A stretch of 36,660 bases of DNA from an uncultured Spartobacteria bacterium (GTDB lineage: Bacteria > Verrucomicrobiota > Verrucomicrobiia > Chthoniobacterales > UBA6821): contig CAIZIQ010000335.1 in assembly GCA_903933015.1 (NCBI GenBank), positions 1 through 36,660 of the forward strand, given 5' to 3'. Below the pieces are notes generated by a model. It ran no database searches. It was not told the origin of the DNA and was given only the letters and a program-made list of their open reading frames with translations. The translations under genes and the position numbers were made by a program. Below, piece after piece: positions 4,073-15,650 of the stretch; the stretch's first letter is position 1; each line of letters starts with the position of its first letter.

Positions 4073-4351
4073 ATGGCACGCTCACTCAAAAAAGGCCCAT
4101 TCGTGGAGTGGAAGCTCCTCGAGAAGATCGACAAGCTCAACGAGAGCAATACAAAAAAGCCCATCAAGACCTGGTCACGTCGTTCGACCGTCACTCCTGA
4201 CTTCGTTGGCCATACCTTCAACGTTCACAACGGACGGTCGTTCATACCCGTCTTTGTTACGGAGAATATGGTTGGTCATAAACTCGGCGAGTTTGCGCCG
4301 ACCCGTATTTTCAAGAAGCACGGCTCCCACACCGCCAAGGTTACCAAGTAA
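4073..4351 (+). CDS. rpsS: 30S ribosomal protein S19
   Basis: S19 is a head protein that contacts the A-site tRNA and bridges to the large subunit. The 92 residues begin [19 protein letters not shown] and contain the family signature [20 protein letters not shown], followed by [20 protein letters not shown]. Both length and motifs are standard. It lies 6 bases after rplB. In nearly all bacteria rplV follows directly; here a non-ribosomal gene starts 25 bases downstream. Confidence 0.98.
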
Positions 4352-4376: not shown

Positions 4377-5126
4377 ATGTCCAATCATCGCCATCTTTCA
4401 GCTGCGACTGCCGCCGCCCTTCTTGGGTTGCCGGTTGCGGCTGCGCTTGCCCAGCAGGCGGGTAGCGGCGTTGCTGCGGGTGAGGGAACATCTTCCGTTC
4501 TGCGCGAAAGGCTTCTTATTTCCGAGGCTTCCATTAAGGCGCTCACCGAAAGCCTTGCCATCGCAAACGGCGAGGCTGAGCTTTTTAAGCGTAAGTCCGA
4601 AGATTTGAATGAGCGTGTGGAAGCTCTCGGAATTGCACCTGCCGGCAAGGAGACAGAGATTGTTCGTGACCGCCTTCTCGCTGCCGTCCGAGACCTGCGT
4701 CTTCTTCAGAAGGAAAATGACACGGTTCGCGACCACCTTGTTGCACTCAGCGAATCTGTTATGGAGATGCTCAAGACCACCGAAGGAATCGATGCCAAGT
4801 CGCGCTCCAAGGTGGAGGCAGAACTTCGCTCCGCGGCAGCCGCTTTGCACAAGTCCGATACCGCCGCGGTGAACTCCACCGGACTTACCAGTGGCACGGT
4901 CGTTGATTATAAGCCCAATCTTTCCCTCGTTGTCGCCAACCTTGGTTCCCGTCAGGGAGTGAAGACCGGCATGCCTTTCCAGGTATGGCGCGGTGACCGC
5001 GAGATTGCTTCCGTTCGTGTCGTCGATGTCCGCGACGCCATCAGCGGAGCCATTGTTCAGTCCACTGCCACACCTTCCATGAATGTGCAAGCAGGCGACA
5101 CACTCCGAATCGACACCACACGCTAA
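4377..5126 (+). CDS. Secreted coiled-coil protein with C-terminal beta domain, inserted between rpsS and rplV
   Basis: I do not recognise this as a named gene. The 249-residue product starts MSNHRHLSAATAAALLGL and has a clear export signal: a short basic N-terminus, an Ala/Leu-rich core and an ALA cleavage-type site near residue 25. Residues about 40-157 are charged and helical with heptad-like Leu spacing (RERLLISEASIKALTESLA, VRDRLLAAVRDLRLLQKEND), probably a coiled coil. Residues about 170-246 form a beta-rich module with SGTVVDYKPNLSLVVANLG, GVKTGMPFQVWRG and VQAGDTLRID, a pattern also seen in C-terminal domains of envelope proteins such as FlgT. It should act in the periplasm. It is 25 bases after rpsS and 8 before rplV, on the same strand, with codon use like its neighbours, so it is probably co-expressed with the ribosomal genes. 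The start was chosen because it gives the signal peptide; earlier starts overlap rpsS. Confidence 0.85.
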   Translation: MSNHRHLSAATAAALLGLPVAAALAQQAGSGVAAGEGTSSVLRERLLISEASIKALTESLAIANGEAELFKRKSEDLNERVEALGIAPAGKETEIVRDRLLAAVRDLRLLQKENDTVRDHLVALSESVMEMLKTTEGIDAKSRSKVEAELRSAAAALHKSDTAAVNSTGLTSGTVVDYKPNLSLVVANLGSRQGVKTGMPFQVWRGDREIASVRVVDVRDAISGAIVQSTATPSMNVQAGDTLRIDTTR

Positions 5127-5134
5127 TTCTACCC

Positions 5135-5581
5135 ATGCAAGTCATCGCCACCCACCGCTACGCGCGCATCTCCGCCTTTAAGGCCCGTGAGGTTACCCGT
5201 GAGATCCAGGGCCTTCCTGCCGTTGATGCCCTCCAGCAGCTTGCCTTCATTCCCAAGAAGGCCGCTCCCCTGATTGCCAAGACCCTCAAGAGCGCGATTG
5301 CCAATGCCGAGCATAACAATAACGTCCGCCCCGAGCTCCTTGTGATCAAGGAGGCTGTCATCGGTGAGGCGCCGACCATCAAGCGCGTCCGACCCAAGGC
5401 ACGCGGCAGCGCGGGTCCCGTCCGCAAGCGCAACAGCCACATCCGTATCGTCCTTACCGACGAGGTGCCGATCATTCGTCGCTCCGACAAGCCCAAGTCC
5501 TCCGGGAAGGGCAAGGCCAAGTCAAAGAAGCCCGAGGTTGCCGCTCCGGTAACCGAGGCACCTGCTGAACAATCCGCCTAA
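5135..5581 (+). CDS. rplV: 50S ribosomal protein L22 with C-terminal extension
   Basis: L22 lines the narrow part of the exit tunnel. The product is 148 residues against about 110 usual. The core is clear: YARISAFKAREVTREIQGLP, AAPLIAKTLKSAIANAEHNN and the tunnel hairpin region KRVRPKARGSAGPVRKRNSH ending HIRIVLTDE. After about residue 112 comes an added tail, first Lys/Ser-rich (KPKSSGKGKAKSKKPE), then Ala/Pro/Glu-rich (APVTEAPAEQSA), probably disordered. It follows the secreted coiled-coil gene by 8 bases, with TACCC before the ATG and no Shine-Dalgarno. Confidence 0.97.
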   Translation: MQVIATHRYARISAFKAREVTREIQGLPAVDALQQLAFIPKKAAPLIAKTLKSAIANAEHNNNVRPELLVIKEAVIGEAPTIKRVRPKARGSAGPVRKRNSHIRIVLTDEVPIIRRSDKPKSSGKGKAKSKKPEVAAPVTEAPAEQSA

Positions 5582-15065: not shown

Positions 15066-15650
15066 ATGTCTGAAGAAACGCCCGTCACCCCTGAGTCCCC
15101 CGAGGTTCCCGCCGCAGCTCCTGCTGCAGCTCCCGAGGCCGCAGCCCCTGCAGTAAAAGCTGAAAAAGCCAAAGAGCCTAAGGCCAAGAAGAGCAGCAAG
15201 GAAAAGAAAGCAGAGGAGGCCGCCACTCCCGCCGCTCCCGTCAGCTTTAACCTCGATGACCCCATCGAGCCGCCCAAAATCGTCAAGGCTAAGGGCAGCA
15301 AGAACATCACTCAGGGGATCGCTCACGTTCAGGCCACCTTTAACAACACCATCGTCAGCGTCACCGACCTGCGCGGTGCTGTTCTCGGCTGGTCCAGCGC
15401 CGGCAAGATGGGCTTCAAGGGCTCCCGCAAGAGCACTGCCTACGCTGCTCAGATGGTCGCTCAAGATGCCTGCCGTCAGGCCATGGGACATGGTCTTAAG
15501 GAAGTCGAAGTTCGCGTCAAGGGCCCCGGTTCGGGTCGCGAATCAGCCGTCCGCGCCATGCAGGCGATTGGACTTGAGATCTCCGTCATCCAGGATGTCA
15601 CCCCCGTTCCCCATAACGGTTGCCGTCCTCCGAAACAGCGCCGCGTCTGA
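15066..15650 (+). CDS. rpsK: 30S ribosomal protein S11 with long N-terminal extension
   Basis: S11 is a platform protein of the small subunit. The product has 194 residues against about 125-130 usual. The family core begins near residue 73: [60 protein letters not shown] and [17 protein letters not shown]. The preceding 70 or so residues are low complexity, first Glu/Pro/Ala ([17 protein letters not shown]), then Lys-rich ([20 protein letters not shown]). No in-frame Met nearer the core was seen, so the extension appears to be translated. Confidence 0.96.

Follow-up and report, generated by a model that had tools for sequence, protein, structure and literature searches.

A gene for a predicted exported protein beside rplV in the S10 ribosomal operon of Verrucomicrobiota

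Few gene orders in bacteria are as well conserved as that of the S10 operon, whose usual non-ribosomal members serve basic functions. The window analysed here, the whole of a 36,660-nucleotide stretch of DNA from an uncultured Spartobacteria bacterium (contig CAIZIQ010000335.1), raises the question of why a gene for a protein with an export signal should lie in this operon, between rpsS and rplV. The gene, denoted X in the following, its neighbours and its predicted protein regions are located as follows:

4073..4351, + strand: rpsS, upstream neighbour of X
4377..5126, + strand: gene X, predicted exported helical/beta-barrel protein (open frame, positional orthologues, dN/dS 0.06-0.16 within the genus)
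4377..4451, + strand: signal-peptide-like N-terminus, residues 1-25 (MSNHRHLSAATAAALLGLPVAAALA; hydropathy maximum 1.95)
4491..4865, + strand: helical, coiled-coil-like region, about residues 39-163 (low-confidence AF2 helices, composition, weak heptad signal)
4872..5123, + strand: predicted C-terminal six-strand beta-barrel domain, residues 166-249 (AF2 pLDDT 72; kept from short to long forms; sub-threshold Pfam FlgT_C)
5135..5581, + strand: rplV, downstream neighbour and conserved partner of X

The gene and its predicted protein

The open frame at 4377-5126 starts with ATG, encodes 249 amino acids with 0 internal stops and lies on the same strand as its neighbours, 25 bases after rpsS and 8 bases before rplV, in agreement with the first-pass annotation of this DNA. 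The alternative considered there, a chance relic, fails: orthologues 62-73% identical to X are present in 15/15 genus relatives, and all strong homologues with a fetched locus occupy this interval. Searches of Pfam and NCBIfam returned nothing above curated cut-offs for the tabulated proteins, window X included, and the family is without a curated model. No description of X was found in the open-access literature, and the gene seems not to have been described before. Two ribosomal frames of the same window have features of their own: the rplV product (148 aa; 5135-5581) carries a C-terminal tail that is lysine-rich and then acidic, and in the apparent rpsK frame (15066-15650) the usual S11 sequence is preceded by ~65 extra N-terminal residues, among which A, E, P and K abound.

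The signal peptide proposed in the annotation is consistent with a maximum 15-residue hydropathy of 1.95 and with an ALA|QQ cleavage-like site. By the same criterion, a simple hydropathy test and not a trained signal-peptide predictor, a 15-residue stretch above 1.3 occurs in 65/66 X orthologues and one above 1.6 in 62/66; the highest value among the ribosomal-protein controls (n=64) was 1.43. For the single orthologue without an N-terminal signal, L099, a late start codon had been taken; further upstream, its open frame encodes a membrane stretch. The predicted signals are of several types (cleavable-type, lipobox, uncleaved-looking membrane anchor), with lipoprotein forms at loci L091 and L114 and membrane-anchored forms at L095, L100, L109 and L123. 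The suggestion that X is an envelope component is thus supported as far as export signals go, the location itself being read from these signals. The uncleaved-looking anchors of some lineages (L095, L100, L109) could also be taken to mean that X is attached to the inner membrane with its helical part facing the ribosomes, as a ribosome-to-membrane tether. However, cleavable-type signals or lipoboxes are found in many of the orthologues and would put the remaining protein outside the cytoplasm, and we regard a tether as very improbable.

A coiled coil had been proposed at about residues 40-157. Helices were predicted by AF2, with low confidence, at residues 36-63, 67-83, 91-111, 115-133 and 140-163, and the helical character of this region is clear from its composition. 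The canonical heptad repeat, however, is weakly supported, the heptad score being equalled by 21/300 shuffles. The full-length AF2 model (pLDDT 54.6, from an alignment of 10 sequences) was too poor for use. Modelled alone, the C-terminal domain reached pLDDT 72 with six strands, and the predicted six-strand barrel, together with the strand predictions, agrees with the beta domain that had been annotated there.

Distribution, genomic partner and descent

A match to X at E<=0.001 was obtained in 61 of the 77 order relatives, many weaker matches being a paralogue described below, and all strong homologues with a fetched locus (L001, L003-L031, L032-L040) sit between rpsS and rplV. A related gene occupies the same interval in the fetched regions of other families of the class and phylum. 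Across Verrucomicrobiota, the X domain profile found matches in 168 of 230 genomes; since it was built from genes at the S10 site, this search measures constancy of place and not how common the domain is elsewhere. Of the 67 matches with E<1e-16, 66 are immediately downstream of rpsS; the remaining one, in genome G194, lies 1 base upstream of rplV. X directly follows rpsS in 74/230 genomes and, with a further 38 in which it directly precedes rplV, occupies the rpsS/rplV site in 112/230 genomes from at least 39 families, the window's order included, a count of position relative to rpsS or rplV in which rplV downstream was read in the fetched loci and not in all 74 genomes. The median gaps on the two sides of X are 18 and 13 bases, and X shares with the S10 operon its strand, small gaps and conserved neighbours.

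The proteins encoded at this site differ in length. Signal, helical part and barrel are combined in families f15, f18 and f19, and forms with signal and barrel and without the helical part are found in f14, f17 and f20-f23. In profile comparisons the window family matched the class set with prob 100 over 244 columns, other classes with prob 99.5 and the short forms with prob 97.8. In genomes of family f27 (G083:C8, G095:C10, G127:C90, G282:C6), two neighbouring X-domain matches were seen away from the S10 operon.

One deep clade, from which 22 loci were fetched, and the separate genome G194 do not have X beside rpsS, and where it could be read in those loci the operon break falls after rpsS. 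Among 52 tested genomes, X stands directly before rplV and not beside rpsS in 38, mostly in operons broken after rpsS, and in G194 the gap between the two genes is 1 base. The rplV-linked proteins of broken operons likewise combine an export signal and a barrel with a long helical part, and their profile aligns with that of the window family over 192 columns, helical part included (prob 98.5; 99.1 against the class set). In the tree, the breaks map to two or more distinct branches. Because X is retained directly before rplV where it is not beside rpsS, its conserved neighbour is rplV; the rpsS-rplV setting originally noted holds for the window, but the pair as such is not the conserved partner. 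The S10 operon appears to be broken between rpsS and rplV in the whole of the clade L131, L133-L153 as well as in L090 and L094, probably Lentisphaeria and Kiritimatiellia, the position after rpsS being taken by a dapA-like gene in L090 and L094.

X is under purifying selection, with dN/dS of 0.06-0.16 within the genus (0-0.09 for the neighbouring ribosomal genes). Its protein distances correlate with those of rpsS, rplV and rpsC (Mantel r 0.918; 0/2000 permutations as high), as expected of a gene that is old in the phylum and has been inherited vertically. Selection, vertical descent and the occurrence of homologues at this one site in two deep parts of the phylum tree bear out the earlier statement that X is not a fresh insertion, and the comparison of the rpsS-rplV interval proposed with it gave the 112/230 genomes reported above. 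On the ribosomal trees, the pattern of presence requires a minimum of 13-14 changes, or 17 losses under a single gain of X; the trees are without an outgroup, so that the age of X within the phylum is unproven. These many losses indicate that X is dispensable in many lineages. In most X-less genomes of the order, rpsS and rplV are cleanly and closely spaced, at 6-17 bases in the sister genus and 9-28 bases in family f5. Longer empty intervals were found in two genomes of 0.9 Mb (148 bases in one, 313 in the other) and in one further genome (552 bases). A profile search of the empty intervals recognised no X remnants, and the long intervals of the 0.9 Mb genomes are only suggestive of decay. 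Shortened forms of 174-180 aa with a degenerate C-domain lacking the GD motif (L049:1769-2308, L050:1794-2315) are possibly genes on the way to loss.

This history also accommodates the strongest rival to a functional reading, namely that a useful envelope gene landed before rplV and could not easily leave an essential operon, its co-regulation being without purpose. Vertical descent without relocation, the number of clean losses (several lineages without X have intervals of 6-28 bases) and a codon use that is intermediate and not of the maximal ribosomal-gene type would all fit such a trapped gene. However, X was kept beside rplV, and not rpsS, on both sampled break branches, two events being weak statistics, and its tight spacing is preserved phylum-wide. 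On balance a trapped gene appears rather unlikely.

Expression and proposed role

The codon adaptation of X to the ribosomal set of the window is 0.576, higher than that of secY, adk and map (0.50-0.54) and of the X paralogue (0.492) but below 18/19 ribosomal genes (range 0.46-0.77), in a comparison confined to the fetched DNA. The codon use described in the first-pass annotation as matching that of the ribosomal genes is therefore better called intermediate, and would fit moderately high expression and not the full ribosomal-gene level. A consensus scan for promoters and terminators at the X locus gave no excess over chance. Together with gaps of a few bases, this layout, on which the proposed joint expression depends, would fit co-transcription of X with the S10 genes. 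Growth-rate-dependent envelope building, the example given for such joint expression, may follow from it.

In the best reading, for which we put the case at about even, X is a protein that scaffolds or assembles the envelope and whose production keeps step with that of the ribosomes. X would be transcribed and translated within the S10 (or rplV-rpsC) operon, so that its amount would follow ribosome synthesis, and would be exported by Sec, to stay periplasmic or membrane-anchored depending on the lineage. The helical part may oligomerise or span a distance, and the C-terminal barrel, of the broad type of the FlgT and TsaP C-domains, may bind a partner, X thereby acting as a scaffold or assembly factor for the envelope whose supply would have to match growth. 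This reading was favoured on account of the constant position, the retention beside rplV, the dN/dS and Mantel r values, the export signals, the small gaps and the TsaP and FlgT_C matches. Weighed against it were the many losses, the short forms without a helical part and the weak likeness to FlgT_C and TsaP, as well as the cytoplasmic ATPase barrels as nearest PDB folds and the presence of secretins with and without X alike.

The conservation of a predicted exported protein in the S10 operon across the phylum points to a connection of the envelope with ribosome supply, and suggests that bacteria with X couple the synthesis of an envelope component to that of ribosomes. As a more tentative extension, possible if somewhat doubtful, the coupling may be phylum-wide, an envelope protein being held at a fixed ratio to ribosomes by the place of its gene before rplV, so that operon structure by itself would adjust envelope capacity to growth rate. 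Independently of its role, X is a rare genomic character for the phylum tree, with the states inside the operon, at the head of the broken half, and lost.

Comparison with known systems

The genome of the window also encodes a paralogue of X (L002:1113-1919, contig C119) between argH and ruvC/lipB. It shares the C-domain with X (hhalign prob 95.9), has a membrane anchor and a coiled coil, and is 27% identical, but unlike X it lies outside the ribosomal operon and has lower codon adaptation. Genes resembling it appear in many relatives. The PVC signature protein CT421.2, conserved and uncharacterised in PVC bacteria, measures 53 to over 80 aa (PMC3444138) and is much smaller than X (249 aa, with an export signal), the two being set apart here by published size and not by alignment.

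SecM and the other Sec-monitoring arrest peptides resemble X in that the gene for an exported product immediately precedes another gene of its transcription unit, putative in the case of X. X could be a monitoring substrate whose translation or export controls how the ribosomal genes behind it are translated, in the way SecM acts on secA, and the few bases between X and its possible target would suit such a role. Known arrest peptides, however, have C-terminal motifs and are described upstream of secA, secDF or yidC (PMC10987492). X has a large folded domain, a different downstream gene and no conserved C-terminal arrest motif; its tails vary between families, and the barrel runs almost to the stop codon. 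Moreover, the spacing ranges from 0 to 105 bases, and the X-rplV junction of 16 genus members gave no supported conserved structure or hairpin hiding the ribosome-binding site, with compensatory change in 1/8 pairs. As both tested hallmarks, arrest motif and hairpin, are absent, a SecM-like role is disfavoured and seems highly implausible.

MreC shares with X a layout of anchor, coiled coil and beta barrel, and the MreC barrel model touches 3/32 X domains weakly (best E 0.0088). Identification of X as MreC was rejected, the barrel core being below the cut-off and a genuine MreC being encoded elsewhere in 73/77 order relatives, the window's genome included; among these relatives, MreC presence did not track X. 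A Foldseek and VIA-align comparison of the barrel model gave N-terminal barrels of F1-, V- and related ATPases among the matches listed (Z about 10). FlgT, TsaP and MreC were not among the fold matches listed, which excludes nothing. The N-terminal barrels of F1-ATPase are cytoplasmic. An ATPase function was not adopted for X, the fold matches being taken as a common barrel arrangement from which no function is drawn.

The structure and profile checks proposed for residues ~165-249 thus gave the predicted barrel (pLDDT 72) and weak matches to two families. Pfam FlgT_C (PF16538) weakly matches 14/32 X domains, below its gathering score (25.1-25.2 bits for the domain alone and 20.9 for the whole protein, vs 27). 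The FlgT N and M domains were not found in X, and the gene lies outside a flagellar locus. Among solved structures, the best profile match of the C-domain is TsaP, the type IV pilus secretin-associated protein (PDB 3jc8, marginal at E 0.0011; 6ve2, E 0.52), the resemblance running via the TsaP C-terminal region; TsaP has an N-terminal LysM domain, whereas X has no LysM match at E<=10. Secretins are present in 77/77 order relatives, with or without X, and are not informative. FlgT and TsaP are proteins of envelope rings. The barrel of X may be distantly like those of FlgT_C and TsaP, a weak likeness that for FlgT_C comprises the common short core LVVLNxGxxxGVxxGM in proteins that both belong to the exported class.
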